NCBI GenBank assembly: GCA_027076405.1
Contig: JALTJN010000100.1
Coordinates: 14,970 to 78,969, forward strand
DNA: 64,000 nt
Direction of reading: 5' to 3'
From: Chromatiales bacterium
Lineage (GTDB): Bacteria; Pseudomonadota; Gammaproteobacteria; UBA6429
Shown here: piece after piece, positions 26,104 to 47,282 of the stretch
Layout: each line of letters begins with the position of its first letter
Position numbering within the stretch: position 1 is the first letter of the stretch
The notes under the pieces: model-generated
The model's database searches: none
What the model saw: only the letters and a program-made list of their open reading frames with translations
Told to the model about the DNA's origin: nothing
Position numbers and translations under genes: made by a program

Positions 26104-26107
26104 ATAT

Positions 26108-26776: not shown

Positions 26777-26779
26777 GCT

Positions 26780-27538: not shown

Positions 27539-27539
27539 A

Positions 27540-27701
27540 ATGGAAGCATTAGATTTTGGTAAGTACAATTTATATATTTGGGCATCGTATGGCCTGACCT
27601 TTGCTATTCTAATTTGGAATATTGTTATTCCATTAGTTGCAAAAAAGCGATTAGTGAAAAAAATTAAACGTCAAAATTATTTAAATGGGAATCAGCCGTG
27701 A
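27540..27701 (+). CDS. ccmD: Haem exporter accessory protein CcmD
   Basis: A 53-codon gene found by reading the ccmC-ccmE gap. The product begins MEALDFGKYNLYIWASYGLT, has one transmembrane helix (about 11-33) and a basic tail with KKRLVKKIKRQN. That is the exact layout of CcmD, which links CcmC-CcmE to CcmAB. The TGA stop overlaps the GTG start of ccmE (GTGA at 27698-27701). Confidence 0.93.
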   Translation: MEALDFGKYNLYIWASYGLTFAILIWNIVIPLVAKKRLVKKIKRQNYLNGNQP

Positions 27702-28159
27702 AACCAGCTCGTAAAAAAAGATTGTTCTTTATTGTTTTTCTTGTGGCCGGTGTCACGCTTGCTGCCGGCTTTGCAATGTATGCTTTCAATCAAAATCTGA
27801 TGTTTTATTTTTCGCCAACGGATGTTAAAGAAGGAAAAGCACCGGTTGATAAATTATTTCGTATGGGTGGCATGGTTGTAAAAGGCAGTTTTACTAAAGA
27901 GCCAAAGAGTTTAAAGGTTCACTTTGATCTTACTGATTATGAAAAAACAGTCTCAGTTGAATATGAAGGTATTTTGCCAGATTTATTTCGCGAAGGTCAG
28001 GGGATTATTAGTCGCGGCAAACTGAATGCTCAAGGTGTATTTATAGCAGAAGAAGTTTTAGCCAAGCATGATGAGAATTATATGCCGCCGGAAGTTGCCG
28101 ATTCTTTAGAGAAAGCGAAAAATAAGCTGGAAAATAAAGCAAAAGAAAATACGAAATAG
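27698..28159 (+). CDS. ccmE: Haem chaperone CcmE
   Basis: A 153-residue membrane-anchored periplasmic haem chaperone. It has an N-terminal anchor (about 8-29), the OB-fold domain with VKGSF and FDLTDYEKTVSVEYEGILP, and the covalent haem ligand His124 in LAKHDENYMP, with Tyr128. It starts with GTG overlapping ccmD. It is the last gene before a 299-bp break in the ccm order. Confidence 0.97.
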   Translation: MKPARKKRLFFIVFLVAGVTLAAGFAMYAFNQNLMFYFSPTDVKEGKAPVDKLFRMGGMVVKGSFTKEPKSLKVHFDLTDYEKTVSVEYEGILPDLFREGQGIISRGKLNAQGVFIAEEVLAKHDENYMPPEVADSLEKAKNKLENKAKENTK

Positions 28160-28458
28160 GAATACATCTTTAAACGTTTAGTACGAGTTAAAAGGTAAGG
28201 GCCTGGAATAGGGATTTTTAAATTAAGACCGTTTACTGTAAGGATGCAGGAAGTGGGGTAACGTAATAATTGTTGCTAAAGGACGCACAGTCGAGAGTCA
28301 AAGTAGTCAGGCATCTTTCTCTTCGTCAGCCTTCCTCTGCTGTTAGATGATAATATTTTGCGTGTCTTGATTTGAAACTTTTCTAGTGTGGAGTTGAAGA
28401 AATTCCCGGACCTCTCGTTCTTGTTGTTGAATTTTATAGAGTAAAAAGTAGATAAATC
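28160..28458. other. Unusual 299-bp gap between ccmE and ccmF
   Basis: No protein or RNA gene is recognised. The gap contains TTTAGTACGAGTT...GTAAGGG near 28178 and the 23-bp block 28353-28375 that also occurs, inverted, at 8971-8993. In most ccm operons ccmE and ccmF lie next to each other, so this looks like inserted repeat-type DNA. Confidence 0.5.
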
Positions 28459-30420
28459 ATGATCCCAGAACTCGGCCACTTTGCATTAATCATGGCGTTA
28501 GTCATGTCCCTGATCCAAGCCAGCATCCCTGTTATAGGTGCAACAAAAGGCATTCATTCGTGGATGGATATAGCCAAGCCCGTTGCACGCTTACAGTTGT
28601 TTTTTATGCTGATATCTTTTGCTGCTCTTGTTTATGCTTTTGTTGTACACGATTTTTCGGTGGCCTATGTTGCTAATAACTCAAACACGGCTTTACCTTT
28701 GGTTTATCGGGTTTCCGCTGTGTGGGGAGCGCATGAAGGTTCGTTGTTATTATGGGCATTAGTACTATCAATTTGGACCGGTGCAGTAACAGTCTTTAGT
28801 CGCAGTATTCCAAAAGATATGCTGGCTCGGGTTATTAGTGTCATGGGTATGGTCAGCGTTGGCTTTTTACTTTTCATGTTATTCACCTCTAACCCTTTCG
28901 ATCGTTTAGCGTTTGCACCGGCACAAGGTCGTGATTTAAATCCATTATTGCAAGATTTTGGTTTAGCGATTCATCCACCGATGCTGTACATGGGCTATGT
29001 TGGTTTTTCGGTCGCCTTTGCTTTTGCTATTGCTGCCATGTTGGGCGGCAAGTTAGATGCCGCATGGGCAAGATGGTCACGTCCGTGGACTAATATCGCC
29101 TGGTTATTTTTAACTTTAGGGATTGCGCTGGGTAGCTGGTGGGCTTATTACGAGCTTGGCTGGGGTGGCTGGTGGTTTTGGGATCCGGTTGAAAATGCAT
29201 CTTTCATGCCCTGGTTAGTCGGTACTGCATTAATGCATTCTCTTGCGGTGACTGAAAAACGTGGCACCTTTAAAGCATGGACAGTGTTATTAGCTATCTT
29301 TGCTTTCTCGTTAAGTTTATTAGGAACATTTTTAGTGCGTTCGGGGGTACTGACTTCGGTACATGCTTTTGCTACCGATCCTGCTCGTGGTGTGTTTATT
29401 TTAATATTCCTTATTATTGTTATTGGTGGTTCGTTAGCGTTATATGCCTGGCGTGCCCCAAGTATTCGCAGCAGCACCACGTTTGAACTTTTTTCACGTG
29501 AAACGGCGTTACTTTTTAATAATGTTATTTTAGTTGTTGTTGCCGCCAGTATTTTATTGGGTACGTTATATCCTTTATTATTGGATGCATTGGCGATCGG
29601 TAAAATTTCAGTTGGCCCTCCCTATTTTGAAAGTGTCTTTGTTCCTTTAACAATTCCTCTGGCTTTATTACTTGGCATTGGAGCCATGATGCGCTGGAAA
29701 CAGGATCAACCAATGCGGTTGGTTAAAGCGCTAGGTCTATTGTTTGTGATTAGCGTAGTCGTGGGTAGTTTGTTGCCTTTGCTGTTTTCTCATTATGAAT
29801 TTGGCGCAGCAATCGGTTTGATGCTTGCTTTATGGATAACCCTTACCACATTACAAGGCATTCGCTTGCGGCTAACAAATAAAGGATATTCTTTTGTGTC
29901 ATTCATGAGTATTCCCCGCAGCTTTTATGGAATGAGTATTGCTCACATTGGTGTTGCTGTTTTCATTGTTGGTATTACATTAACGTCAATTTATAGCGAA
30001 GAAAAAGATGTACGAATGGTGCCTGGCGAGCAATTTGTATTAGGTGGTTATAGTTTCGAATTTAAGGGCGCGGGTTCTGTTCCGGGGCCAAATTATCTTG
30101 CACAAAAAGGACATCTTGTTGTGAGCAAGGATAATCAGGTTGTAGCGACGATGTATCCGGAGAAACGAGTATATCGGGTACAACGTAATCCAATGACAGA
30201 AGCGGCGATTGATGCCGGTATTACGCGTGATTTATTTATTGCTTTAGGTGAACCTCGTGGTGCTGATGGGGCATGGAGTTTACGGCTGTATGTTAAACCG
30301 TTTATTCGCTGGATTTGGCTCGGTACAATTATTATGGCTCTGGGTGGTTTGCTTGCAGCAACCGATCGACGCTATCGTTTGTTAGGAAAAAACAGTCAAG
30401 CTAAAGAGGCCGCAGTATGA
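28459..30420 (+). CDS. ccmF: Haem lyase subunit CcmF
   Basis: A 653-residue polytopic membrane protein, the normal size. It has the tryptophan-rich WWD motif (WGGWWFWDPVENASFMPWL), HEGSLLLWALVLSIW near the start, and the AIHPPMLYMGYVG and LLGTFLVRSGVLTSVHAFA blocks with conserved haem-ligand histidines. With CcmH and CcmI it ligates haem to CxxCH sites. Its stop overlaps the start of ccmG by four bases. Confidence 0.98.
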   Translation: MIPELGHFALIMALVMSLIQASIPVIGATKGIHSWMDIAKPVARLQLFFMLISFAALVYAFVVHDFSVAYVANNSNTALPLVYRVSAVWGAHEGSLLLWALVLSIWTGAVTVFSRSIPKDMLARVISVMGMVSVGFLLFMLFTSNPFDRLAFAPAQGRDLNPLLQDFGLAIHPPMLYMGYVGFSVAFAFAIAAMLGGKLDAAWARWSRPWTNIAWLFLTLGIALGSWWAYYELGWGGWWFWDPVENASFMPWLVGTALMHSLAVTEKRGTFKAWTVLLAIFAFSLSLLGTFLVRSGVLTSVHAFATDPARGVFILIFLIIVIGGSLALYAWRAPSIRSSTTFELFSRETALLFNNVILVVVAASILLGTLYPLLLDALAIGKISVGPPYFESVFVPLTIPLALLLGIGAMMRWKQDQPMRLVKALGLLFVISVVVGSLLPLLFSHYEFGAAIGLMLALWITLTTLQGIRLRLTNKGYSFVSFMSIPRSFYGMSIAHIGVAVFIVGITLTSIYSEEKDVRMVPGEQFVLGGYSFEFKGAGSVPGPNYLAQKGHLVVSKDNQVVATMYPEKRVYRVQRNPMTEAAIDAGITRDLFIALGEPRGADGAWSLRLYVKPFIRWIWLGTIIMALGGLLAATDRRYRLLGKNSQAKEAAV

Positions 30421-30944
30421 ATCGTGCTTTATTACCCTTACTTGCTTTTGTTATTTTAGTTGTTTTTTTAGGTATTGGTTTAACCAAAGATCCACGTAAA
30501 TTACCTTCTACCTTTATCGGTAAAAGCGCACCGATGTTTACATTGCCATTATTGCATGAGCCTGCAAAATCTTTTTCACCAACGACGATGCTTGGCAAAG
30601 TCTGGATTTTAAATGTATGGGCTTCATGGTGTGTTTCATGCCGGGCTGAGCATCAGGTTTTAAATTCGATGGTCAGTAGTCATAAAGTAAATTTAGTCGG
30701 ACTAAATTATAAAGATGAAGTTAGCGACGCGTTGCGCTGGTTATCCCGTCATGGTGATCCTTATCAATTTAGCGTTAGTGATATTGAAGGCTTGATTGGT
30801 ATTGAGTGGGGCGTTTATGGTGTGCCGGAAACATTTATTATAGATAAAAAAGGCATTGTTCGTTTAAAGCACACAGGACCGGTTAGCCGTAAAGATATCA
30901 CAGAAGAAATTATTCCAATGATTAAACAACTGGAGAAGGAATAA
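30417..30944 (+). CDS. ccmG: Thiol:disulfide interchange protein CcmG/DsbE
   Basis: 175 residues: an N-terminal membrane anchor (about 5-22) and a periplasmic thioredoxin fold with WASWCVSC (Cys72, Cys75) and the GVPETFIID cis-proline loop. CcmG keeps the apocytochrome cysteines reduced before haem attachment. It overlaps ccmF and abuts ccmH (stop and start share a base). Confidence 0.96.
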   Translation: MNRALLPLLAFVILVVFLGIGLTKDPRKLPSTFIGKSAPMFTLPLLHEPAKSFSPTTMLGKVWILNVWASWCVSCRAEHQVLNSMVSSHKVNLVGLNYKDEVSDALRWLSRHGDPYQFSVSDIEGLIGIEWGVYGVPETFIIDKKGIVRLKHTGPVSRKDITEEIIPMIKQLEKE

Positions 30945-31411
30945 TGAAACAATTTATTATACTTCTTTCCTTGCTGGTAACTCTGTCTGTTGCAGAAGCT
31001 GCAGTTGAAGTAAAAGAATTTAACACGCCGCAACAGGAACAGCGTTATAAGAAGCTTATAAATGAATTTCGTTGTGTGGTTTGTCAAAACCAGAATATCG
31101 CAGACTCAAATGCAGCTCTGGCAAAAGACTTGCGTAAGCAAGTTTATAAAATGGTCATGGCAGGTAAAAATGACAAGGCTATTCGGGACTTTATGGTGAC
31201 GCGCTACGGTGATTTCGTTTTATATAATCCACAATTTAACTCCATGACTTTTCTTTTGTGGGCCGGCCCTTTTATTATTTTTATTATTGGCTTCTATGTA
31301 CTGGTGAGTTTTATCAGACAACGAAAGAAAGTGGTTGTTACACATTTAAGTCATGCTGATAAAGAAAAGCTGGCAAAGCTACTGGCAGAAAATAAGGATA
31401 AAGCTAAATGA
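30944..31411 (+). CDS. ccmH: Cytochrome c maturation protein CcmH (CcmL-type)
   Basis: 155 residues with a signal peptide (about 1-19), the redox motif RCVVCQNQNIADSNA (Cys44, Cys47) and one C-terminal membrane helix (about 104-125). It corresponds to the short thioredox form of CcmH; the TPR part is the separate ccmI gene. The last four bases overlap ccmI. Confidence 0.96.
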   Translation: MKQFIILLSLLVTLSVAEAAVEVKEFNTPQQEQRYKKLINEFRCVVCQNQNIADSNAALAKDLRKQVYKMVMAGKNDKAIRDFMVTRYGDFVLYNPQFNSMTFLLWAGPFIIFIIGFYVLVSFIRQRKKVVVTHLSHADKEKLAKLLAENKDKAK

Positions 31412-32676
31412 TTATGTTTTGGATTATTGCTCTTGCGATGGTTGTTATTGCGTTAATATTTCTCCTGCGCCCGCTTTTACATGAGTTAAATAAAAAAGAT
31501 ATTGATCGAGAAGCACAAAATATCTCGATCACCAAAGAAAGATTAAATGAGTTAAAAGTTGAGCTTGAGCAGGAAACCATTACTGCGGCAGAGTATGAGC
31601 AAACTAAAGAAGAGCTGGAACAAGCTTTATTAAATGATGTTGAAGTTTCAAACAGGGCATCTGCAATCGTTAATCCTCAATCTTTTACCCGTACAGCACG
31701 TTATATTGTCATTATTTCTGTTCCTGTATTAGCGTTAGGTTTATATACTGTATTAGGACAGCCGGATTTAATTGAAGGTGGGAAAAAGCAAGCATCAGCT
31801 GTTCCTGCGGGTCATGGTTCTGCCGCTAAAGGTAATGCCGGTTTAGGTAGTATCGATGAAATGCTTGAAAAGCTTAAGGCAAAATTAAAACAAAATCCGA
31901 ATAATGCCGAAGGCTGGTTTTTGCTTGCACGTTCTTATATGTCAATGAACAGGTATGAAGAAGCCGTTGTTGCTCTGGAAAAAACTAATCAGCTTGTTCC
32001 TAATACGCCCGTTGTGATGCTGCGATATGCTGATGCCTTAACGATGTTAAATGGCGGAAAAATTAGTGGTAAGCCTTTTGAGTTAATAAAAAAAGCCGTG
32101 GTGATAAAACCTGATGATCCAACCGGATTATGGTTAATTGGTATGGGCTATGCGGAACAAGGCGATTTCCAAAAAGCCATTTCATACTGGAATCTTTTAT
32201 TACCTTTATTAAAAGATGATAAATCAATTAATGAAGTACATCAGTTAATTCGTCAGGCAAAAAGTAAATCAGGTATTGCTCTTGCGGATGAGTCAAAAAC
32301 AACCAGCACCTTACCTAAAAATAAAGCTATAACTTCATTAAAAGTCAAAGTGAGCATTGATCCGTCTATGCTGAAAAATGTTTCGATGAATGACACGGTT
32401 TTTATATTTGCGAAAGCGGTTAATGGTCCACCTATGCCATTAGCGGTTGTGCGTAAGAAAGTTAAAGATCTACCTTTAGATGTTATTCTTGATGATTCGA
32501 TGGCGATGATACCGAGTATGAAGCTTTCATCTTTTGATAAAGTGAAGGTTACTGCCAGAGTTTCCAGAACAGGAAAACCTTTGTTGCAGAAAGGGGATAT
32601 TTATAGCAAAGAAAAACAGATTGGGTTACCTTATAAAGGATTAGTGATTATTAAGATTGACTCTGTCGCTGACTAG
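31408..32676 (+). CDS. ccmI: Cytochrome c maturation protein CcmI
   Basis: 422 residues. Two N-terminal membrane helices (about 3-22 and 95-115) enclose a cytoplasmic coiled-coil segment (ERLNELKVELEQETITAAEYEQ). Then come TPR repeats (NAEGWFLLARSYMSMNRYEEAVVALEKT and following) and a C-terminal domain with PLAVVRKKVKDLPLDVILDDS. CcmI binds apocytochrome c C-termini. It closes the ccm operon and is followed by a hairpin. Confidence 0.95.
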   Translation: MIMFWIIALAMVVIALIFLLRPLLHELNKKDIDREAQNISITKERLNELKVELEQETITAAEYEQTKEELEQALLNDVEVSNRASAIVNPQSFTRTARYIVIISVPVLALGLYTVLGQPDLIEGGKKQASAVPAGHGSAAKGNAGLGSIDEMLEKLKAKLKQNPNNAEGWFLLARSYMSMNRYEEAVVALEKTNQLVPNTPVVMLRYADALTMLNGGKISGKPFELIKKAVVIKPDDPTGLWLIGMGYAEQGDFQKAISYWNLLLPLLKDDKSINEVHQLIRQAKSKSGIALADESKTTSTLPKNKAITSLKVKVSIDPSMLKNVSMNDTVFIFAKAVNGPPMPLAVVRKKVKDLPLDVILDDSMAMIPSMKLSSFDKVKVTARVSRTGKPLLQKGDIYSKEKQIGLPYKGLVIIKIDSVAD

Positions 32677-32741: not shown

Positions 32742-32782
32742 TTGATATAGATCATTTTTTTTTAAAGGATTTATCCTATAGT
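32742..32782 (+). promoter_or_regulatory. FNR-type box and promoter of the nap-type cluster
   Basis: TTGATATAGATCAT (32742-32755) matches the FNR consensus TTGAT-N4-ATCAA in nine of ten positions. TATAGT (32777-32782) is a good -10 element. The box centre at 32748.5 lies 41.5 bp before an expected start near 32790, which is exactly the class II FNR activator geometry. The first gene starts at 32840. Oxygen-limited activation of the cluster is therefore likely. Confidence 0.75.
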
Positions 32783-32839: not shown

Positions 32840-33559
32840 GTGAATACTAAGAATTTTGTATTACTTACGCTATCTGTTTTTGTTCTGAGTCTATCAGGCT
32901 GTTCAAAGGAACAAGACACATCATCCACAAGTTCAAGCACAAAATCTGCATCATCTTCTATGGCAGGATTGCCAGAAAAAGTTGATCCCACATTAGCTAG
33001 TGCAGGGAAAGCTATTTATGAACAAAATTGTATATTTTGTCATCAGGCTGATGCCATTGGTAAAGTGGGTTTTGCACCTTCGTTGACAAATCAGGAATTT
33101 TTAGAAACGGCCTCCGATAAGTTTTTGATGGCAACCATTCGAGATGGTCGCGCCGGAACCGGTATGCCACCTTTTGCTCATCTCGGACGTAAAGATGTTG
33201 AAGCCATAGTGGCTTATCTTCGTCAACACGCTAAGCGTGCTAATCGTTCTGCAGAAATTGATGCAGAGCCACGCAGTCAGGGTGATGAACGATTGGGTCG
33301 ATTCTGGTTTGATTCTATTTGCTCTACTTGCCATGGTCCAAATGGTGATGGTTATGTAGCAGGAGGTACCGGTACAGCCATTGGTAAAGCAGGTTTTCTT
33401 GATAAGGCGACGGATGGTTTTATACGGGAAACGATTATTAAGGGTCGTACGAATACACGTATGATTGGTTATGGTGGTCCAGATTCAATGGCGAACCTGA
33501 GTAAGAGTGACGTGGATGACATTATTGCTTATCTTCGTACAGTGCCAAGTAAAAATTAA
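32840..33559 (+). CDS. Diheme c-type cytochrome lipoprotein
   Basis: 239 residues starting at GTG, preceded by a strong AAGGAGG ribosome site (32829-32835). A lipoprotein signal ends at LSLSGC with Cys21 as lipidation site, followed by a Ser/Thr-rich linker. Two cytochrome c domains follow: CIFCH (64-68) with axial Met in GTGMPPF, and CSTCH (161-165) with TRMIGYGG. It is the first gene of the nap-type operon, 23 bp before napA, and may take the place of the missing NapB as electron donor to NapA. That role is inferred; other cytochrome c electron carriers look the same. Confidence 0.88.
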   Translation: MNTKNFVLLTLSVFVLSLSGCSKEQDTSSTSSSTKSASSSMAGLPEKVDPTLASAGKAIYEQNCIFCHQADAIGKVGFAPSLTNQEFLETASDKFLMATIRDGRAGTGMPPFAHLGRKDVEAIVAYLRQHAKRANRSAEIDAEPRSQGDERLGRFWFDSICSTCHGPNGDGYVAGGTGTAIGKAGFLDKATDGFIRETIIKGRTNTRMIGYGGPDSMANLSKSDVDDIIAYLRTVPSKN

Positions 33560-33582
33560 AATTAATTGAGGGAATAAGTAAA

Positions 33583-36276
33583 ATGAAACGTTTTAAAATG
33601 AATCGACGCGATTTTCTCAAAAGCAGTAGCTTTATTACAGGTGCAACAGCAGCAACAGGTTTATTTGTTGCAGATAACCCTGAACTAGAAGCGGCGCCAG
33701 CGAAAGAAAAAACTGAACGTAAAACGGCGATTGCCCAATGCCCTTATTGTGGAGTGGGCTGTGGAACAATTATTCAGACAGAGAACGGAAAAATTGTTTC
33801 CATGCGTCCGGATAAAGATCATCCAACTAATCGCGGTTTACAATGTATTAAAGGCTTAACTGCCGCTGAACCGATTTATGTCGATCGGATGGAAGGCGAC
33901 CCGTATGTCCGTAAAGATGTATGGGCAGAGTGGCAAAAACCCGGCCATGGAGACATTGAATTTACCAGTAAAACAAAAAATTCATTTGATGAGGATCTCT
34001 TTGTTCGTGTTCCTTACCATGAAGCTGAAGAAATGACCGCTCACAAGATTGCTCATTTGGTTAAAAAATACGGTGGTAACTCAATAAGTTTATATGGTTC
34101 TGGTCAGCTTACTATGGAAGGCCAGTACCTGGAAAATTTATTTATGAAAGGTGTGTTGGGTTCCAATACCATTGAAGCAAATGCACGTATGTGTATGACT
34201 TCTGCGGTAACCGGTTACTTTGCGACACTGGGTTCGGATACCCCTCCTTTAGCTTATGAAGATATCGAGCTCGCCGATATGGTGATGCATTTTGGTCATA
34301 ATGCGCGTGAATCACATCCTATTATCTTCTGGCGTATTGCCGATCATAAACGTAAGAAAGATATTCCTACGGTAGTAGTTGATCCTCGTTTTACAGGTAC
34401 AGCGAAAGGTTATCATGATATTAATGCTAATAACTCCAAACATGTACCTATTCTGAATGGCGATATCAGTTTCCTGAACTCAATAGCTCATGTGTTATTA
34501 AAAGAGCACAAAGATGTTATTGACTGGAAATTCCTTAAAGAACATACCAATGGCTGGAAAGAATATACCGATGGTGTATTAAAAGATTACAGCCCGGAAC
34601 AGGTTCAGGATCGCATGGGTGGAAAAAATCATGATGTATCTCCTGCTCTGATTCGGGAAGTTGCCGGTATGTTTGCTGATGCGACACGTAAACGTTTGCT
34701 ACGCAGTAAAGGTAAGCATGAAGGTAAAGGTTATGGTGGCGTTATTATTATGTGGGGTATTGGTTATAACCAGCACATCCATGGGCAACATAACGTTATC
34801 TCAATTATTAACTTATTAACTCTGACAGGTAATCTGGCAAAACCCGGGTGTGGACCTTTCTCTATGACAGGTCAGCCTAATGCTATGGGTGAACGTTTTA
34901 CTGGTGGTTTAACTGGCCGTTTACCCTTTAACCAGCCATTGAAAAATAAGTCACATCGTAAATGGATGGCAAAAAACTGGCGTGTGCCAGAGAAGAATTT
35001 AATTAATGCAATGAACTCCAAAAATCCCGGTATGGCTGTGGGTATGATGGAGCGGGTATTAAAAGATGAAGTTAAAGCGATGTTTCTGGTTTATGCCACG
35101 CACATTGATTTGCCGGATCAACGAAATCTTGTTCGTCCGGCATTAATGAAAAGCTTCAATGTGGTTCAGGAAATTTATCGTCATGCACCAAATAATCTGT
35201 TTGCCGATGTTATTTTCCCGGCAGCAACATGGGGTGAAGTTGATGGTGTTTATATTAGCTCAGAGCGCCGTATTAACCGTGTAGAAAAGGCTGCAGAAGC
35301 TCCTCCAGGTTGCCGTGCAGACATGGATATGGTTATCGATAAGGGTAAAGCGATTGCCAAATTATTGGGTATGAATCCTGAGAAGATATTTCCATGGTCA
35401 AAAAATAAAGATGGATCTTATAATGCAGAAGAAATATTCCGTGATGTAGTCGTTGCTTCGGGTGGTACAGATACTGATTTAACCGGAATGCTGGAAGTTG
35501 AAAAAATTGATGGTAAAGGACTTTATCAGCAACTACATGACCTACGTGGCATTCAATGGCCGGCCCCCACTTATGAAATTGCCAAAAATGGTGGTAGTAA
35601 ACGTCGATTTATGGCTCAGGAAGGTGTCTGGAAAAATAAACCTTATGGTTATTTCCGAACCAATGATGGCAAGGTGCATATGAAACTTTGCAAGCAGGAC
35701 TATAGTCAGCGTGAAGAAATCACCAAACAGCTTATGGCATTTGGGGTTAAGAAAGATCACTATACGATTGATAATATTCCTTTGATTAAAAAAGCACGTG
35801 ACATGGGCTTAACACCGGATCTGCCGGATGAAGCGGAACGTGGTCAAGCATGGGATAAGGTTGCTAAAGACAAATTCCCATTCTGGTTAGGATTAGGTGT
35901 TGTTTATGAACACTTCCATACCGCTAAATCTAATCGCAGTCCGACTACACGTCGTTTGGTGCCAGAAATGTATGTAGAAATGCATATTGATGATGCCAAA
36001 GAACTTGGAATTAAAGATGGTGATAAAGTTAACTTAATCACTCGCCGTGGACAGTTCCAGGCCAAGGCTCAGGTTGGTACGAATAGTTTAGTGAAACCTG
36101 CTCGTAACAGTGTGCCAAGAGGGTATGTCTTTAGCCCTTGGAATCTATCGGTTGCTGATAGTGCGGATCCGAAGAAGAACAAATGGCTGGTAAATGCTGT
36201 ATCCAGCCGGGTTTGGGATCCTGTATCAGGTCAGGTTGATTTCAAGAAGTTGGCATGCCGTATCGAAAAAGCTTAG
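33583..36276 (+). CDS. napA: NapA-like periplasmic molybdopterin nitrate reductase
   Basis: 897 residues, longer than usual NapA (about 830). A Tat signal is present (MNRRDFLKSS). The [4Fe-4S] ligands are Cys53, 56, 60 and 88 (CPYCGVGC ... QCIKG), and the Mo ligand is Cys204 in ARMCMTSAV. The motif CPYCGVGC is more usual in Nas and formate dehydrogenases; NapA normally has a C-x-F/Y-C-G-T-G-C version. About 60 extra residues lie between the cluster and Mo-ligand regions. GQPNAMGER and the C-terminal molybdopterin-binding block RRLVPEMYVEMHIDDAKELG are intact. NapG/H/C/F-type neighbours make nitrate the most likely substrate, but a related oxyanion cannot be excluded. Confidence 0.82.
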   Translation: MKRFKMNRRDFLKSSSFITGATAATGLFVADNPELEAAPAKEKTERKTAIAQCPYCGVGCGTIIQTENGKIVSMRPDKDHPTNRGLQCIKGLTAAEPIYVDRMEGDPYVRKDVWAEWQKPGHGDIEFTSKTKNSFDEDLFVRVPYHEAEEMTAHKIAHLVKKYGGNSISLYGSGQLTMEGQYLENLFMKGVLGSNTIEANARMCMTSAVTGYFATLGSDTPPLAYEDIELADMVMHFGHNARESHPIIFWRIADHKRKKDIPTVVVDPRFTGTAKGYHDINANNSKHVPILNGDISFLNSIAHVLLKEHKDVIDWKFLKEHTNGWKEYTDGVLKDYSPEQVQDRMGGKNHDVSPALIREVAGMFADATRKRLLRSKGKHEGKGYGGVIIMWGIGYNQHIHGQHNVISIINLLTLTGNLAKPGCGPFSMTGQPNAMGERFTGGLTGRLPFNQPLKNKSHRKWMAKNWRVPEKNLINAMNSKNPGMAVGMMERVLKDEVKAMFLVYATHIDLPDQRNLVRPALMKSFNVVQEIYRHAPNNLFADVIFPAATWGEVDGVYISSERRINRVEKAAEAPPGCRADMDMVIDKGKAIAKLLGMNPEKIFPWSKNKDGSYNAEEIFRDVVVASGGTDTDLTGMLEVEKIDGKGLYQQLHDLRGIQWPAPTYEIAKNGGSKRRFMAQEGVWKNKPYGYFRTNDGKVHMKLCKQDYSQREEITKQLMAFGVKKDHYTIDNIPLIKKARDMGLTPDLPDEAERGQAWDKVAKDKFPFWLGLGVVYEHFHTAKSNRSPTTRRLVPEMYVEMHIDDAKELGIKDGDKVNLITRRGQFQAKAQVGTNSLVKPARNSVPRGYVFSPWNLSVADSADPKKNKWLVNAVSSRVWDPVSGQVDFKKLACRIEKA

Positions 36277-36301
36277 TCGTATTTTGCTAGGCAATTAAAT
36301 G

Positions 36302-36356
36302 TAAAGGCGTAAAGGACGTAAAGAGTTATATTTTTCTTAGCGAACTTTGCGCCTTT
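36302..36356. repeat. Palindromic AAAGGCGTAAAGG element between napA and napG
   Basis: TAAAGGCGTAAAGGACGTAAAG (two direct half-units) is mirrored by CTTAGCGAACTTTGCGCCTTT. The layout (two short direct repeats per arm) is the same as in the CCACGAAGG elements, but the unit differs. It sits inside the nap-type operon and could act as a processing or partial termination point. Confidence 0.6.
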
Positions 36357-36411
36357 TCATTTTTAGGTATTAAATATTAATGTAATAGTTAAAAAAGTAA
36401 GGTTGTATTAA

Positions 36412-36990
36412 GTGAAACGTCGTACATTTATACAAGGAGTCATTGGAACAGGCTTATCAAGTTTGTTGGCTGAAAATACCTTAGCTGCTCGCAATAATCC
36501 TTCAGTACGATTTCTTCGTCCACCCGGTTCGTTGCCGGAAGATGAATTTGTATCACGCTGCATTCGCTGTGGTAAATGTGGTGAAACTTGTCCTAACCGT
36601 ACCATTAAATATTTTGATTTGGAAAATGGCGTATCCTCTATGGATACTCCTTTTATTATTCCTAGAGAGCAAGCTTGCATACTTTGTATGAAGTGTGGTG
36701 ATGTTTGTCCTACTGGAGCGATTCAACCTGTTAAGCGAGATATGAAACCTATTTTAGAAAAAGTAAAAATGGGTAAAGCGCGTGTAGATAAAAATTTATG
36801 TTTGTCTTATCAGGGTAAAACATGTGGCGTTTGTTATCGTGCCTGCCCTTTAGCAGATGTAGCGATTCGAATCGGTATGCTAGAGCAGCCGCATATCTTA
36901 AAAGATTGCGTGGGTTGTGGTTTATGTGAACGCTCATGTATTCAGATACCTCAGGCTATTAGAATTATTCCAAATCATGAACGGTCGTAG
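36412..36990 (+). CDS. napG: NapG-like periplasmic ferredoxin
   Basis: 192 residues starting at GTG. The start carries a twin-arginine-like signal (KRRTFIQG). Four cluster-binding motifs follow: CIRCGKCGETC (50-60), CILCMKCGDVCP (89-100), CGVCYRACP and CVGCGLCERSC, the MauM/NapG layout. NapG passes electrons from membrane NapH towards NapC/NapB in the periplasm. It is the first of two NapG-like genes here, with napH-like between them. Confidence 0.87.
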   Translation: MKRRTFIQGVIGTGLSSLLAENTLAARNNPSVRFLRPPGSLPEDEFVSRCIRCGKCGETCPNRTIKYFDLENGVSSMDTPFIIPREQACILCMKCGDVCPTGAIQPVKRDMKPILEKVKMGKARVDKNLCLSYQGKTCGVCYRACPLADVAIRIGMLEQPHILKDCVGCGLCERSCIQIPQAIRIIPNHERS

Positions 36991-37024
36991 TTAATCTTAT
37001 TTTAAAATTCAAAGTAGAAAGCAG

Positions 37025-38044
37025 GTGAAATTAAATTTTATGAAAAAACTGATGATTAAGATTCAGCGACATTTAAATAAGCTTCGTTGGGGTGTTCTGT
37101 CACTAGTTTTCAGCATGTTAATTCTGTTGCCTTTCCTTCATTTATATCAAACCTATGAAGCTGCACATGCTTATGATTTATTATCACCCTCTGAAAAATC
37201 TATTTCAGATACGATGGAATGGTTAAGTAAACCTTTTGTTAAAGATCCTGAAGTGGATTTAAATAATTTAAAAGGCACAACCTGGTCAGGTACTTTATTT
37301 GGTTTAAAATTGAGTGATCCATTAGCTGTTGTTGGTCAAATTTCTGCAGGTAAAACTATTTACCTGCCATTTTTAATCACAGCACTTATTCCTATACTTT
37401 TAACACTTATTTTCGGGCGTTTCTTTTGTGGCTGGATTTGTCCGGCGACTTTTATCTACGAACTTAATGATAATCTTGCAACCTGGCTGCGTAAAGCGGG
37501 CTTACCTGTTGGTAAAAGAAAACTGGATTTTCGACTTAAGTATTTAGTGCTTGCTATGGGAATTATTATTTCAGCCGCAACAGGTATGATCGCGTTTGCA
37601 TCCATGTATCCACCTGCATTGATCGGTCGTGAAATTTATTATGCTGTTGCTTTGAGCGGCTTTGGTTCAGGTATGGTTTTTTTCCTGCTGACATTGTTAT
37701 TTGATTTGATGGTAACTCGTCGGGGATTCTGTCGCTATGTTTGTCCGGGCGGAGCCTTATATTCTTTGCTTGGTCATTTTCGTTTATTTCGAATTAAACG
37801 TGATGTTGCATTATGTAATGACTGTGCAAAGTGTAATGTCGTTTGTCAGTTTGGTTTAGATCCACTACGGGATGATTTTACTCAGGAATGTAATAACTGC
37901 ACCGCATGTATCGCGGTATGTCCAACCGATGCATTATCTTTTACTGTTAACGTTAAAGATATCCCAAATCAGGGACCGGGCCATTTAGGGCATGAATATA
38001 AACGGTTACATAACATTAAAGATGATCAGGATATAAAGTCATGA
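37025..38044 (+). CDS. napH: NapH-like membrane ferredoxin quinol dehydrogenase
   Basis: 339 residues from a GTG start (an ATG six codons in, at 37040, is an alternative). About four to five transmembrane helices. The cytoplasmic-loop motifs CGWICP and CRYVCPGG and the C-terminal double cluster CNDCAKCNVVC / CNNCTACIAVCP match NapH, which oxidises menaquinol or ubiquinol and works with NapG. Compared with E. coli NapH (287 residues) there is an added periplasmic segment after TM1 (about 50-100). Its stop overlaps the next start (ATGA). Confidence 0.87.
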   Translation: MKLNFMKKLMIKIQRHLNKLRWGVLSLVFSMLILLPFLHLYQTYEAAHAYDLLSPSEKSISDTMEWLSKPFVKDPEVDLNNLKGTTWSGTLFGLKLSDPLAVVGQISAGKTIYLPFLITALIPILLTLIFGRFFCGWICPATFIYELNDNLATWLRKAGLPVGKRKLDFRLKYLVLAMGIIISAATGMIAFASMYPPALIGREIYYAVALSGFGSGMVFFLLTLLFDLMVTRRGFCRYVCPGGALYSLLGHFRLFRIKRDVALCNDCAKCNVVCQFGLDPLRDDFTQECNNCTACIAVCPTDALSFTVNVKDIPNQGPGHLGHEYKRLHNIKDDQDIKS

Positions 38045-38700
38045 AACGTCGAAGTTTCCTGCAAAAAACAGTTTTTGGTTTTGGCATTTTAGGATTTAGC
38101 AGTTTACCCTTTGGCTTATCCCGTTTACTTTCGCCAAAAGCTAATGCTGCATTGCAAAATTATTCAATTTTACCCGGCGCAATATCTGATCCGGAAGCAT
38201 TTAATGCTGCATGTATTGGCTGCGGTTTATGTGGTGAAATTTGTCCTCCGAAATGTATTTTATTCCATAAGAATGACGGTGGACCCGAGTCAAATAAACC
38301 TTACATACAGCCTGCTATTAAGAGTTGTACATTATGCGGTTATTGTATGGAAATTTGTCCAACAGAAGCCTTAACCGTCACACCGATCAGGGAAGTTGAT
38401 ATGGGAGTTGCACAAATTGATCGTGCAGCTTGTTATCCATGGGTTGATAAAGGTGTATGCGGAGCATGTGTTGCTGTCTGCCCATTAGGAGACAAAGCGA
38501 TTGATTATGATTTTGGCAACTTTTATCGTCCTGTTGTTAAAGATGGTTGCGTTGGCTGCGGTCAATGTGTTGAAGTTTGTCCAGAACCAAGTTTACCTAT
38601 ACGAATTGTACAAGGCACAGACAGTAAAGTTGCAAGACATGGTGTAGGGCTTAATCAGCAATACAAATGGCAAGAAAGTGATAGTCGGTTAAAATATTAA
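38041..38700 (+). CDS. Second NapG-like periplasmic ferredoxin
   Basis: 219 residues with a Tat-like signal (MKRRSFLQKT, hydrophobic stretch to about 36, ANA cleavage). Cluster motifs are CIGCGLCGEICPPKC, CTLCGYCMEICP, CGACVAVCP and CVGCGQCVEVCP. Its layout is that of NapG/MauM, and it overlaps the napH-like gene by four bases, the arrangement expected of the true NapG-NapH pair. Presence of two NapG paralogues is uncommon. Confidence 0.85.
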   Translation: MKRRSFLQKTVFGFGILGFSSLPFGLSRLLSPKANAALQNYSILPGAISDPEAFNAACIGCGLCGEICPPKCILFHKNDGGPESNKPYIQPAIKSCTLCGYCMEICPTEALTVTPIREVDMGVAQIDRAACYPWVDKGVCGACVAVCPLGDKAIDYDFGNFYRPVVKDGCVGCGQCVEVCPEPSLPIRIVQGTDSKVARHGVGLNQQYKWQESDSRLKY

Positions 38701-38702
38701 AA

Positions 38703-39281
38703 ATGAAATTTAAAAAAGTTGTTTTACTGATATTGCTAATTAATATTTTAAGCTTTAATCAGGTATTTGCTCATCATGTATTAGGCCGGCCATCTTATAG
38801 TTTAGGTGATGATTCAAATACACCGCCTAGCCTGCAGGTTGAAACACAAATAGGCGAATACTATGTAACATACATGGCCTTTCCTGCTTTCCCAAAACCC
38901 AATGAGTCAGGTCGAGTCAATTTATATGCTTCACGTATCGATAATGGAAATACATTTAATGGCAAAGTAACTTTTAAAGTTAGAGATGATAGTTGGTTTT
39001 CATCAAAGCAGGAAATATTAGGAACGCAGGAAATTGATGATGGTGTATACCGGCAAGGTTTTGTTTTTAGTAAAGCAGGAAATTATATCGTAACAGCTGA
39101 ATTTGAATCCGGTGGCGAGCCTTATACGATTGATTTCCCGCTACGTATTGGTGAACCGGATTCTATTGGCCCAATAGGATTAGCTGTTGTTATTATAGTT
39201 TTAGTCATTGTTGCGGTAAATATAACACAGCGCCATCGTTTACAACGATTAAAGGCAAAGCAGCATCATAGTGATCATTAA
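38703..39281 (+). CDS. Membrane-anchored periplasmic protein, FixH-like, in nap-type cluster
   Basis: 192 residues. A signal peptide (about 1-23, ending VFA) leads to a His-His start of the mature protein (HHVLGRPSYSL), a beta-rich domain of about 130 residues (ETQIGEYYVTYMAFPAFP; GVYRQGFVFSKAGNYIVTAEF), and a C-terminal membrane helix (about 158-177) followed by a basic tail. The fold is reminiscent of FixH/YtkA-like domains, which are linked to metal delivery for respiratory enzymes; the N-terminal HH could bind a metal. The gene starts 2 bp after the NapG-like stop and is followed after 2 bp by the NosR-like gene. Function unknown. Confidence 0.7.
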   Translation: MKFKKVVLLILLINILSFNQVFAHHVLGRPSYSLGDDSNTPPSLQVETQIGEYYVTYMAFPAFPKPNESGRVNLYASRIDNGNTFNGKVTFKVRDDSWFSSKQEILGTQEIDDGVYRQGFVFSKAGNYIVTAEFESGGEPYTIDFPLRIGEPDSIGPIGLAVVIIVLVIVAVNITQRHRLQRLKAKQHHSDH

Positions 39282-39283
39282 AG

Positions 39284-40861
39284 ATGTATGAGTTAGTTGT
39301 CAATTTTATTAATAACCTAATTTATGTGCCAGAGGAAGGGATGGTGCATCCCGGATTGCCTGCTGGATGGGTTGCATTTATTTTTTTCAGTATGGTTGTC
39401 ATTGCAATACGTTATATTTTCTTCTCTGTTCAGTCCGGAACAGGTTTTAAATTCCCAATTAGTAATTCTTTTATTAAAAAAATCACTACCCGACCATGGC
39501 TTATTGTTAGTTTTAGGCTGGTTGCGGCAGCTGTTTTTTTACTTGTTGTTTATGCAGGTTTATTTGGTACCCCTGTTCCTGAAAGAAATATTGCAACAGT
39601 TTTAACCTGGACTATTTGGTGGTCAGGCGTTGTCATTAGTATTTTCTTTGTTGGTTCAGCATGGTGTGCAATCTGCCCATGGGATGCTATTGCGACATGG
39701 TTAGTTCGGCAAAAGTTGTGGAAACGCGCAAGTGAAACCAGTAGTTTAAATATACGTGTGCCAAAAGTTTTACGCTCGGTATGGCCTGCACTAATCATGT
39801 TTGTTGGTTTGACCTGGTTAGAGCTGGGAGTTGGTGTAACCGTTAGTCCCTATGCAACCGCATTAATGGCTTTATTTATGGTGGTGGCAGCTACGGTTTC
39901 TTTGGCGGTATATGAACGCAAAGCATTTTGCCGTTACTTTTGTGCAATAGGCAGAACGATTGGTGCATATAGTTCTATTGCACCCATTGCTTTAGCCCCT
40001 GTTAATGAAAAGACATGTGCTGATTGTAAAACACTTGAATGTTATCACGGCACAAAAGATATCGAACCCTGTCCGACAAATCTTGTTATGGGACGGCTCT
40101 CTCAGAATACTTATTGTACTTCTTGTGGTGCATGCAGCATGAGTTGTCCACATCAAAACGTAAGCTGGCGAATTCGTGGCGTGGGAGATGAAATTACTCA
40201 AACTCCACGTTCATCTGCATTAAGGGGACGCGTTGATGAAGGCTGGTTTATTCTAGGTTTAGTTGCATTAACAATATTTCATGGAATTACCATGATGCCA
40301 TATTGGGAAAGTTCGATTCATAAACTGGCATATTTGATTGGTGATTCAGGACAATTATTAACAAGTTTTAGTCTCGGGATGTTTGCGGGCATGGCTATTC
40401 CGATAATATTATTTTTAGCATCCATTAAATGGACTCAAATTTTGTTAAAAACAAAAGAGGAATACAATCGTATTTTCTCGGCTTTTGCACTAAGCATCTT
40501 ACCCTTGGCTTTTACTTACCATATTGCACATAACATGACACACCTGGTAAGAGAGAGTCAGGGTTTCTGGACAGTATTATTTAATCCATTAGGTATAAAT
40601 ACACAACCATTAAGTATGATGGAAAGACATATGCGGCATATGAACCCGATTATCAATGACAATATCGTGTTTGGTATTCAGGGTTTGCTTGTTATTTTCG
40701 GATTTTATTTGTCACTGCGTATTGCCAGACAGCGGTTTAATCAGGTGAGTGCGACATCTAAGGTTATAAAACGAGTGTATGTGCCACTGTTTTTATATAT
40801 CTCTTTTATTAGTCTTGTCGATTTATGGCTTTTAATGCAACCAATGATTATGCGTATGTAA
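39284..40861 (+). CDS. NosR/NapH-like membrane polyferredoxin
   Basis: 525 residues. Two helices precede the motifs CAICPWDA (about 127-134) and CRYFCAIGR, then a double ferredoxin region (CADCKTLECYHGTKDIEPCP; CTSCGACSMSCP) and at least five further helices with conserved histidines (FHGITMMPYWE; AYHIAHNMTH). It resembles the C-terminal half of NosR or CcoG-type proteins but lacks the N-terminal FMN domain of NosR. It probably moves electrons between quinol pool and the periplasm or assists enzyme activation; that is inferred. Confidence 0.78.
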   Translation: MYELVVNFINNLIYVPEEGMVHPGLPAGWVAFIFFSMVVIAIRYIFFSVQSGTGFKFPISNSFIKKITTRPWLIVSFRLVAAAVFLLVVYAGLFGTPVPERNIATVLTWTIWWSGVVISIFFVGSAWCAICPWDAIATWLVRQKLWKRASETSSLNIRVPKVLRSVWPALIMFVGLTWLELGVGVTVSPYATALMALFMVVAATVSLAVYERKAFCRYFCAIGRTIGAYSSIAPIALAPVNEKTCADCKTLECYHGTKDIEPCPTNLVMGRLSQNTYCTSCGACSMSCPHQNVSWRIRGVGDEITQTPRSSALRGRVDEGWFILGLVALTIFHGITMMPYWESSIHKLAYLIGDSGQLLTSFSLGMFAGMAIPIILFLASIKWTQILLKTKEEYNRIFSAFALSILPLAFTYHIAHNMTHLVRESQGFWTVLFNPLGINTQPLSMMERHMRHMNPIINDNIVFGIQGLLVIFGFYLSLRIARQRFNQVSATSKVIKRVYVPLFLYISFISLVDLWLLMQPMIMRM

Positions 40862-40873
40862 TGGAATAACATT

Positions 40874-41533
40874 ATGTTGAATAAATTTAAAAAATATTTA
40901 CAGAATTACTGCAGCTTAAGTGCGCGTTGTCCCATTGGGGTTTTTTTTAGTGTTTTTATTTTAGGTATTTTATTCTGGGGGGCTTTCAATACCAGTATGG
41001 AATTAACGAATACCGAGACTTTTTGTATTTCCTGTCATGAAATGGAAGAGAATGTTTATAAAGAATATAAAGAAACAATTCATTATTCGAATAGAACAGG
41101 AGTAAGAGCAACCTGTCCCGATTGTCATGTACCAAAAGACTGGATACACAAAGTAATACGGAAAGTTGGTGCAACGAACGAGCTTTTTCATAAGGTGATT
41201 GGCAGTATAGATACACCGAAAAAATTCGAAACAAAGCGTTTGCAGCTGGCACAACATGTCTGGAAAACCATGAAAGATACAGATTCGCGTGAATGCCGGA
41301 ACTGTCATGCTTTTAACTCAATGAATCTTAAGGTGCAAAAAAAATCATCACAAAGTGCACATAGACGTGCTCTTGAAAAAGGACAGACATGTATAGATTG
41401 CCATATGGGAATCGCACATCATATTGCCAAAAAGTTTGATAAAGATTTAGTCTTGCATGATAAATTTAAAAAAGAGAAAAGGCCTTGTGCGGATTGTCAT
41501 AAGGGGATGCCTCAACCCGGCGCCGGCTGGTAA
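40874..41533 (+). CDS. napC: NapC/NirT-family cytochrome c with five haem motifs
   Basis: 219 residues, membrane-anchored by one helix (about 22-40). The four NapC haem motifs are CISCH (51-55), CPDCH (81-85), CRNCH (141-145) and CIDCH (173-177). A fifth, CADCH (205-209), lies in a C-terminal extension ending PQPGAGW. NapC takes electrons from quinol to periplasmic reductases. With no NapB in the cluster, the additional haem could help direct transfer to NapA. AATGGAA is a weak ribosome site. A long palindrome follows directly. Confidence 0.88.
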   Translation: MLNKFKKYLQNYCSLSARCPIGVFFSVFILGILFWGAFNTSMELTNTETFCISCHEMEENVYKEYKETIHYSNRTGVRATCPDCHVPKDWIHKVIRKVGATNELFHKVIGSIDTPKKFETKRLQLAQHVWKTMKDTDSRECRNCHAFNSMNLKVQKKSSQSAHRRALEKGQTCIDCHMGIAHHIAKKFDKDLVLHDKFKKEKRPCADCHKGMPQPGAGW

Positions 41534-41658
41534 ATTAACCATTACAGACGGTGTTAGCGGCGTTAAGTCTAAAATTTAAAAAATTCATTTATTTATTATA
41601 AATTCATTTTTTAAATTTTAAACTTGCCTTGCTTCCATCCGCCTGTAAAGGTTAATTA
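41534..41658. repeat. 124-bp imperfect palindrome between napC and napF
   Basis: ATTAACCATTACAGACGG at the left is mirrored by CCGCCTGTAAAGGTTAAT at the right, and AAGTCTAAAATTTAAAAAAT inside is mirrored by ATTTTTTAAATTTTAAACTT. The centre is near 41596. It starts one base after the napC stop and occupies most of the 194-bp gap. It could be a MITE-like relic or an mRNA-stabilising/attenuating hairpin. Confidence 0.75.
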
Positions 41659-41727
41659 TGTGGTGATTTAGACTATCTTTTGTTTAAATCATAATACTGC
41701 TTTGTAACTTATTGAATAAGGTTAATA

Positions 41728-42288
41728 ATGGATCGTAGAGATTTTTTTAGACGGGGTTTGGGTAAAGCGGCAGAGGTTGCTGTTAAAACCGTTGATAAGC
41801 GTGCGGCTGACAGGGCAAAACACTGGATCCGTCCTCCTTATGCGGTTGCTGAACTTGATTTTTTATTAGCCTGCACACGTTGCAATGCTTGTATCGAAGC
41901 TTGTCCGCACAATATTATTTTTCCATTGGCCGCTCGTTTAGGTGCGGATGTCGTCAATACACCTGCTCTCGATTTATTAAAAAAGGGTTGTCATTTATGT
42001 GAAGACTGGCCATGTGTAAATGCATGTGAAGCAAAGGCATTAGTGCGCATAGAAAATGAAAGCCCGACAAAATTTGCCAGAGCTGAAATAAATGAAAACC
42101 TTTGTTTACCTTTTTCTGGGCCGGAATGTGGTGCTTGTGTGCCGCATTGTCCGGTTGAAGGGGCAATGGAATTAATAAATGAAAAACCTGTTATTCATCA
42201 GGATGTCTGTTCAGGTTGTGCTTTATGTCGCGAGGTTTGCGTTGTAGAGGAAAAAGCAATATTGATAACGCCCTTTATTGTAGAATAA
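41728..42288 (+). CDS. napF: NapF-like ferredoxin
   Basis: 186 residues with no clear signal cleavage site, though it starts MDRRDFFRRGLGK as NapF proteins do. Cluster motifs: CTRCNACIEACP (about 50-61), CHLCEDWPCVNAC, CGACVPHCP and CSGCALCREVC. NapF acts in the cytoplasm, binding NapA and helping its maturation. In this cluster, where napD is absent, it may carry more of that chaperone role. It is 11 bp from the convergent kinase gene. Confidence 0.88.
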   Translation: MDRRDFFRRGLGKAAEVAVKTVDKRAADRAKHWIRPPYAVAELDFLLACTRCNACIEACPHNIIFPLAARLGADVVNTPALDLLKKGCHLCEDWPCVNACEAKALVRIENESPTKFARAEINENLCLPFSGPECGACVPHCPVEGAMELINEKPVIHQDVCSGCALCREVCVVEEKAILITPFIVE

Positions 42289-46550: not shown

Positions 46551-47282
46551 TTACCAGGAAGTACTGTCGTCGAGCGTTGTTCCTTCGACCGGGCCACTTG
46601 GTCCACGTTGTTCTTTATTCAATGGATTATCGGCACGTTGTAATTCGTCTTCATGAATATGCATACGAGTTTTACGTCGTGGCAAGTAGTGATTAGACGG
46701 GTTCGTTCCCCATTCAGGCATTAACTGATAACCACCTTCTTCACGAATCTGCACAGAGACTTCTGAATCAGGATCATGTACATCACCAAATAAACGGGCA
46801 CTGGTCGGACAAGCGAGTACACAAGCCGGCTTACGTTCTGACTCGGGTAATGATTCGTCATAAATACGATCAACACATAAAGTACATTTTTTCATGACTT
46901 TTTGTTGTTCATCAATTTCACGTGCACCGTAAGGACAAGCCCATGTGCAATAACGACAGCCTATACATTTATCGTAATCGACTAAAACAATACCGTCTTT
47001 TTCACGCTTGTAACTTGCGCCGGTTGGGCAAACAGGAACACAAGGTGCATCTTCACAATGTAAACAACTCTTTGGAAAGTGAACGGTTTCTGTTTTTGGA
47101 AATTCGCCAATTTCATACGTTTGTACACGGTTAAAGAAAGTACCGGTTGGATCTTTACCATACGGATTTTCATCCGTCATAAAACCTGCGGGACCCGAGG
47201 TATTCCATTCTTTACAACTTGTTACGCAAGCATGACAGCCTACACAAACATTAAGATCAATAACTAAAGCTAACTGAGTCAT
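46551..47282 (-). CDS. soeB: Sulfite dehydrogenase iron-sulfur subunit SoeB
   Basis: 243 residues with four cluster motifs: CVGCHACVTSC, CLHCEDAPCVPVCP, CIGCRYCTWACP and CTLCVDRI ... CVLACP. This is the layout of DMSO reductase-family electron-transfer subunits. There is no signal peptide, consistent with cytoplasmic SoeAB. It shares a base with the soeA stop, so the two are translationally coupled. Confidence 0.93.
   Translation of the reverse strand: MTQLALVIDLNVCVGCHACVTSCKEWNTSGPAGFMTDENPYGKDPTGTFFNRVQTYEIGEFPKTETVHFPKSCLHCEDAPCVPVCPTGASYKREKDGIVLVDYDKCIGCRYCTWACPYGAREIDEQQKVMKKCTLCVDRIYDESLPESERKPACVLACPTSARLFGDVHDPDSEVSVQIREEGGYQLMPEWGTNPSNHYLPRRKTRMHIHEDELQRADNPLNKEQRGPSGPVEGTTLDDSTSW

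Follow-up and report, generated by a model that had tools for sequence, protein, structure and literature searches.

A stretch of 64,000 nucleotides from a Chromatiales bacterium (JALTJN010000100.1), referred to here in its full length as the window, holds at positions 32840-42288 a cluster of nine genes, all on the + strand and separated by gaps of no more than 194 bases, that includes a NapA-like molybdopterin oxidoreductase. The best reading of these sequences is that they encode a conserved, FNR-linked exported nitrate reductase system, independent of NapB and NapD, in marine and sulfur-oxidising bacteria. Specifically, it is likely that the cluster represents a third lineage of molybdenum nitrate reductases exported through the twin-arginine translocation (Tat) pathway, fed by quinol and equipped with a dihaem cytochrome that replaces NapB. 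The lineage is best explained as distinct from NapA as well as from the cytoplasmic enzymes NasA and NarB, the tree itself separating it from the NapA clade. A preliminary description of this DNA had given the gene order and coordinates, which were borne out, and had suggested a distinct quinol-to-nitrate system devoid of NapB and NapD; the distinctness of the system is well supported by the conserved operon, by the FNR sites, and by NapB and NapD following NapA, while nitrate is its presumed substrate.

The catalytic protein and its lineage

The NapA-like protein (33583-36276, 897 residues) matches the curated NapA profiles NF010055 and TIGR01706 over their whole length, with scores of 341.4 and 323.5 bits that lie far below the respective cut-offs of 904 and 930.55 bits. 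In a tree of 34 rows, canonical and monomeric NapA proteins group together without the family (bootstrap 100, Shimodaira-Hasegawa-like approximate likelihood ratio test 99), and a fragment of a Desulfovibrio NapA groups with canonical NapA. Trees that force the family to join canonical or monomeric NapA are rejected by the approximately unbiased test (p 0.0026 and 0.0019, respectively), in tests that were picked after a first quick tree and with a warning from the program of long branches meeting, the family's included. Membership in the NapA family is rejected on account of both the scores and the position in the tree, so that the cluster, although first described as of the nap type, has a catalytic protein outside the NapA clade as well as a gene content of its own. 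The twin-arginine motif RRDFLK at residue 8, recognised as a motif only, is at odds with an identity as cytoplasmic NasA/NarB. The family is about 25-30% identical to NapA proteins found on plasmids.

The residues of the active site were compared in an alignment of 22 family members from the loci described below and 19 rows of canonical NapA (including the E. coli protein and one identical pair), together with four NasA/NarB-like proteins, the Desulfovibrio NapA fragment, and the E. coli formate dehydrogenases. All 22 family members keep the molybdenum-ligand Cys, the Met that follows it, the Lys between the Fe-S cluster and the molybdenum, and the equivalents of Asp155, Gln, and Arg354, while in FdhF the positions of this Met and Arg are taken by His and Cys. 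Conversely, all 22 family members have Leu where the 19 canonical rows all have Tyr58; this Tyr faces NapB in heterodimeric Nap, according to section 6 of PMC13223375, from which the roles of the other residues are also taken.

Conservation and spread of the cluster

The cluster is a conserved and widespread system rather than a local accident. An alignment of 20 relatives, used as the query, led to 157 confirmed stretches in species genomes, the best 80 of which were kept as loci, and gene content was judged in the 46 loci with a flank of at least 1.5 kb on the 5' side of napA and 6.5 kb on its 3' side; a gene was taken as present when tblastn exceeded 60 bits, absence meaning either a score under 60 bits or a position outside the stretch. 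The genes for the dihaem cytochrome, the NapA-like protein, the first NapG-like protein, the NapH-like protein, and the small protein formerly labelled FixH-like are each present in 46 of 46 judged loci, followed by those for the NapF-like protein (43), the NapC-type cytochrome (39), and the polyferredoxin and the second NapG-like protein (31 each). The operon thus recurs elsewhere, as the preliminary description had proposed to verify, in loci that their record titles assign to gamma-, alpha-, and betaproteobacterial groups and that are mostly metagenome-assembled; among the carriers with strain names are Photobacterium profundum, P. indicum, Shewanella gelidimarina, and S. benthica. The class to which the genome with the Photobacterium profundum locus belongs was sampled evenly, and the catalytic gene is present in 18 of its 274 sampled genomes, that one included. 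Despite this frequency, the curated NapA models would not count the carriers as Nap-bearing, because the scores lie so far under their cut-offs. Among the 120 relatives listed, the source names are mostly none and in some cases hypothetical, and the others read "assimilatory nitrate reductase large subunit", "anaerobic selenocysteine-containing dehydrogenase", "ferredoxin-nitrate reductase", "molybdopterin-dependent oxidoreductase", or "molybdopterin oxidoreductase family protein". If the proposed reading is true, a lineage of exported nitrate reductases has gone largely unnamed.

Independence from NapB and NapD

The lack of napB and napD in the window, first noticed by inspection of the reading frames, was confirmed by a search with profiles derived from NapB and NapD of E. 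coli and of the fetched loci, in which the 979 stop-to-stop segments of at least 30 residues in the six frames gave no hit, the best E-values being 0.17 and 2.8, respectively. Within the 80 fetched loci, napD was found at L046 only, in a separate canonical nap operon beside the cluster. The genome-wide occurrence of the two genes was addressed in the genomes of relatives, specifically in 45 carriers, 30 of which derive from the loci and 15 from the class sample. The occurrence of NapB and NapD goes with that of canonical NapA rather than with this cluster: in the 30 locus-derived carriers, NapB, NapD, and NapA above the cut-off co-occur in the same 14 genomes, and the 15 further carriers have NapB in four, NapD in three, and canonical NapA in three. 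The preliminary description had reckoned with napB and napD lying elsewhere in the genome and being co-regulated as an argument against a distinct system; NapB is indeed present elsewhere in 18 of the 45 carriers and NapD in 17, alongside canonical NapA in 17, while in 24 carriers none of canonical NapA, NapB, NapD, and NarG was found. NarG exceeds its cut-off in two of the 45 carriers and is partially matched in a third, which is likewise left out of the 24. Most of these 24 genomes are drafts; in two of them (G161 and G109), the cluster resides on contigs of 3,111,340 and 2,916,906 bases, approximately the size of a genome, so that assembly gaps do not explain the missing Nar and Nap there. 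These observations raise the question of whether an exported nitrate reductase needs NapB and NapD at all.

Carrier G161 is read as Sulfuriflexus mobilis aks1, listed in a table of PMC6397845 as a sulfur oxidiser with a circular genome and positive for anaerobic growth, the electron acceptor being unnamed in the table. Its genome has three matches to PF02239, the cd1-type domain of NirS and its relatives, and the cluster is the only exported nitrate-reductase candidate found in it, although other nitrate-reductase-like proteins are encoded there.

At L046 (126-7100), a canonical nap operon that includes napB and napD adjoins the cluster on the opposite strand, which offers a natural side-by-side comparison of the two systems, while in another carrier (G151) they are about 650 kb apart.

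Electron carriers and the proposed route to nitrate

The first gene of the cluster (32840-33559) codes for a dihaem c-type cytochrome, a probable lipoprotein with two CxxCH motifs and a lipobox (LSGC) recognised by eye, which matches cytochrome-c/CcoP-type profiles. In an alignment of 69 sequences, both CxxCH motifs and a Met after each of them (in TgM.Pf and NTRM) are conserved, a pattern suggesting that the protein probably carries two His/Met haems. The haems of NapB are bis-His. This small cytochrome has two haem sites and not four as in NapM, and no NapB was found in the window.

The genes downstream of the catalytic one encode a series of candidate quinol-oxidising and ferredoxin-like partners. 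Two NapG-like ferredoxin proteins with twin-arginine motifs (36412-36990 and 38041-38700; NF007012, E 6e-39 and 6e-26, both below the cut-off) flank a NapH-like membrane ferredoxin of the quinol dehydrogenase type (37025-38044; NF007013, E 5e-45), whose match covers profile positions 42-282 of 286 and reaches 153.7 bits, below the curated cut-off of 234. A NapC/NirT-type cytochrome (40874-41533) passes PF03264 (E 9e-74; 247.4 bits against a cut-off of 24.1), scores 269 bits with TIGR02161, under the cut-off of 310.6, and has five CxxCH motifs, at residues 51, 81, 141, 173, and 205, the fifth haem site being located in a C-terminal extension. The last gene (41728-42288) encodes a NapF/NapG-like ferredoxin protein matched by the NapG profile (E 1e-28) and the NapF profile (E 8e-17), in both cases below the cut-off. 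RRxF motifs are located near the N-terminus of the NapA-like, both NapG-like, and the NapF-like proteins. In known systems, NapC-type and NapH-type proteins are parts of quinol dehydrogenases.

In the proposed mechanism, quinol would be oxidised at the membrane by the five-haem NapC-type cytochrome and/or by the NapGH-type pair, together with the extra polyferredoxin modules; electrons would then pass to the membrane-tethered dihaem cytochrome, in the place of NapB, and from there through the 4Fe-4S cluster to the molybdenum centre of the NapA-like protein, which would reduce nitrate to nitrite in the periplasm. NapD would apparently be dispensable for maturation. At two loci (L055 and L066), a bc1 complex may stand in for the NapC, polyferredoxin, and NapF proteins: genes for a Rieske protein, cytochrome b, and cytochrome c1 lie within 400 bases after the small-protein gene, those of L066 having been checked by profile, and tblastn gave no hit over 60 bits there for NapC, the polyferredoxin, or NapF. 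This arrangement suggests that the cytochrome is the constant donor and that the quinol-oxidising module seems to be exchangeable around this link. A bc1-type complex feeds the Nap of Campylobacter, for which it has been argued that nitrate reduction conserves energy (PMC6195509), and Rieske and cytochrome b genes are found within the NapM-type cluster of Caldithrix (PMC5317091). The exchange raises the question of whether the quinol-oxidising module decides energy conservation in periplasmic nitrate reduction.

The small protein and the polyferredoxin

Two names from the preliminary description lack support. The small protein (38703-39281), which had been called FixH-like, gave no match to a FixH-type family in NCBIfam at 1e-3 or in Pfam at E-values up to 10, and no Pfam family accommodates it. 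It looks like an exported protein with a C-terminal membrane helix and, in a structure model (predicted local distance difference test score 89, predicted template modelling score 0.68), an immunoglobulin (Ig) fold; the nearest solved fold is that of the copper protein CrdA, and the fold may be that of the periplasmic copper Ig-fold proteins CrdA and FetP/P19. Residues H24 and H25, at the presumed mature N-terminus, are invariant in 39 sequences, and the protein is possibly a metal protein, with copper as the candidate metal. The polyferredoxin (39284-40861), formerly NosR-like, matches neither NosR nor the flavin mononucleotide-binding domain of NosR in NCBIfam or Pfam, its sole NCBIfam match being weak and of the NapH type (E 5e-5), and "membrane polyferredoxin" is the safer term. 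Its C-terminal part contains four invariant His residues (333, 413, 416, and 420), which may possibly serve as haem or metal ligands.

Probable regulation by FNR

The operon looks FNR-controlled. Of the 80 loci, 67 had sufficient upstream sequence to be scanned, and 27 of these regions contain an FNR box with one mismatch or none, compared with 1.26 expected from dinucleotide shuffles. In the window, the FNR-box-like site TTGATATAGATCAT (32742..32755) lies upstream of the operon with one mismatch to TTGATNNNNATCAA; across the whole window, matches to the box, this site among them, are no more frequent than expected by chance. The genes neighbouring the 80 loci include clusters for MoaA (9), an FNR-type regulator (8), a response-regulator group (7), a NarX/NarQ-like sensor (5), and MoeA (4), and the one member each of MoaA, Fnr, NarL, and MoeA that was checked by profile exceeds its cut-off. 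Within the response-regulator group, only the genes at L015, L034, L036, and L041 adjoin the sensor gene.

Substrate and alternative explanations

The strongest alternative, which we regard as unlikely but not negligible, retains the same export and electron-transfer machinery and assigns to it another oxyanion or an N-oxide, with chlorate, selenate, and organic N-oxides as examples, or else a subsidiary function alongside a canonical Nap, for instance in redox balancing. Several observations weigh against the preferred reading, and those on the residues, the branch, and the carriers with canonical NapA speak for this alternative. The position that follows the active-site Arg holds Glu in all 19 canonical NapA rows and all four NasA/NarB-like proteins, and the Desulfovibrio NapA has Asp there; all 22 family members have Phe instead, with a Glu before it, and the equivalent of Glu156, Glu in 19 of 19 canonical rows, is Thr in all 22; these two changes mean that the substrate could differ, and the family sits on a long separate branch. 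Moreover, canonical NapA is already present in 17 of the 45 carriers, some of which have two copies, so that the cluster is not simply a substitute for Nap. The S. mobilis genome codes for two NasA/NarB-like proteins with no export signal by eye, and nitrate use in this bacterium need not depend on the cluster. Genes of the NarX/NarL type occur at only a few loci, and the sensor checked falls under the NarX and NarQ cut-offs. Only 10 of the 24 carriers free of Nar and Nap have PF02239 or a NirK above its cut-off; the other 14 have neither, although three show weaker NirK-type matches, and NrfA was found in none of the 24.

Against another substrate, the family agrees with nitrate reductases at Cys, Met, Lys, Asp155, Gln, and Arg, NarL and NarX/Q-like genes do stand beside those few loci, and the cluster is the sole exported nitrate-reductase candidate found in nine carriers that have PF02239 and no Nar or Nap. 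PF02239 is also commoner in carriers, with 7 of the 18 class-sampled ones against 10 of 80 non-carriers (Fisher p 0.014), the latter being the first 80 by handle number in the same class sample.

It is improbable that the cluster is an ordinary divergent Nap, that is, a NapA that has lost NapB and NapD in the manner of the Desulfovibrio-type napCMADGH operons and belongs to no separate lineage. The NapA profile is matched over its whole length, and NapB-less Nap systems with NapG, NapH, and NapC are known (PMC13223375, section 5, and PMC5276818). Nevertheless, the bit scores amount to a fraction of the cut-offs, and canonical and monomeric NapA cluster without the family in a topology whose alternatives are rejected, even though the tests were selected once a first tree had been seen and long branches are involved; furthermore, the Desulfovibrio type retains NapD and the tetrahaem NapM, and neither was found here. 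The preliminary description had left room for the gene order being a known Nap variant. This holds for the loss of NapB alone, which is already known, whereas the catalytic lineage apart from NapA, the dihaem cytochrome that goes with it, and the conserved small protein are new.

Lastly, a complex working mainly as a nitrite-to-nitrate oxidase that delivers electrons to the dihaem cytochrome is very improbable, since the FNR boxes and the quinol-dehydrogenase-type NapC and NapH genes point to reduction. In its favour are the pair of probable His/Met haem sites, suggestive of a partner with a high potential, and the ability of oxidised NapA to oxidise nitrite, albeit with lower efficiency (PMC13223375, section 9).

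A quinol-fed nitrate reductase of a third exported lineage remains the preferred reading, and a broader proposition, on which our confidence is evenly divided, can be built on it. Periplasmic nitrate respiration would have arisen at least twice within this enzyme branch, the second time as a widespread exported reductase with a His/Met dihaem cytochrome and an Ig-fold membrane protein, possibly copper-binding, as its constant partners, and with a NapC/NapGH module that can be swapped for a proton-pumping bc1 complex; the system may be energy conserving in some species, and its carriers would be missed or misnamed by marker-gene surveys based on NapA and NarG.

Comparison with known systems

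The cluster shares with canonical Nap (E. coli napFDAGHBC) the twin-arginine signal, the 4Fe-4S cluster and molybdenum-Cys site, the NapG-, NapH-, NapC-, and NapF-type partners, a dihaem cytochrome as the presumed donor, and the FNR-type control to which E. coli nap is subject. In contrast to canonical Nap, it has no NapB or NapD, its dihaem cytochrome is of the cytochrome-c/CcoP type with conserved Met residues, and its enzyme stands outside the NapA clade and has neither the Tyr that faces NapB nor an acidic residue behind the Arg. By the window search, it fits none of the known operon types napEDABC, napDAGHB, napCMADGH, and napAGHBFLD with respect to napD and napB/napM. The Nap of the Desulfovibrio/Thermosulfurimonas type (napCMADGH, napMADGH) resembles it in having no NapB (for Desulfovibrio-type operons, PMC13223375, section 5, and PMC5276818), NapG together with NapH, and a different cytochrome thought to be the donor, but keeps NapD and the tetrahaem NapM.

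The NasA/NarB enzymes belong to the same nitrate-reductase branch of the molybdopterin family, and the NasA proteins compared share the motif CPYCGVGCG; unlike the cluster's enzyme, the NasA/NarB compared have no export signal by eye, are not placed among NapC, NapG, NapH, and cytochrome genes, and have an acidic residue after the Arg. The nap cluster of Caldithrix abyssi and the Qcr-dependent Nap of Campylobacter are similar in that a bc1-type complex is a proposed electron source in the former and the electron source in the latter, but differ in that Campylobacter has NapB and Caldithrix abyssi NapM, each with a NapA enzyme.

Neighbouring genes

In the window, a ccm operon (25468-32676) ends 163 bases 5' of the cluster; its ccmA gene was confirmed by profile, and the names ccmF to ccmI were given by eye. 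E. coli nap likewise adjoins ccm genes. About 11 kb downstream of the cluster, aprA (53381-55288) exceeds its profile cut-off, which fits a sulfur-oxidising host. Another presumed sulfur-oxidation gene, at 47282-50182, encodes a molybdoprotein, a candidate SoeA, that has PhsA as its nearest profile, below the cut-off. Genes resembling aprA, aprB, and aprM by eye adjoin the cluster at L135 (1925-5202), L012, and L011, in Sulfuriflexus mobilis and two relatives. In S. mobilis and in G109, moreover, a NarB-like protein of 726-731 residues with no export signal (L143, 166-4224; L145, 2537-6740) adjoins an apparent fused ferredoxin/membrane anchor, of the DmsBC type by eye. At three loci (L069, L075, and L017), a bacteriohemerythrin gene, checked by profile at L075, is located between the NapF-like and NapC genes; the carriers are Shewanella benthica, Candidatus Colwellia aromaticivorans, and a metagenome-assembled genome of the Alteromonadaceae.

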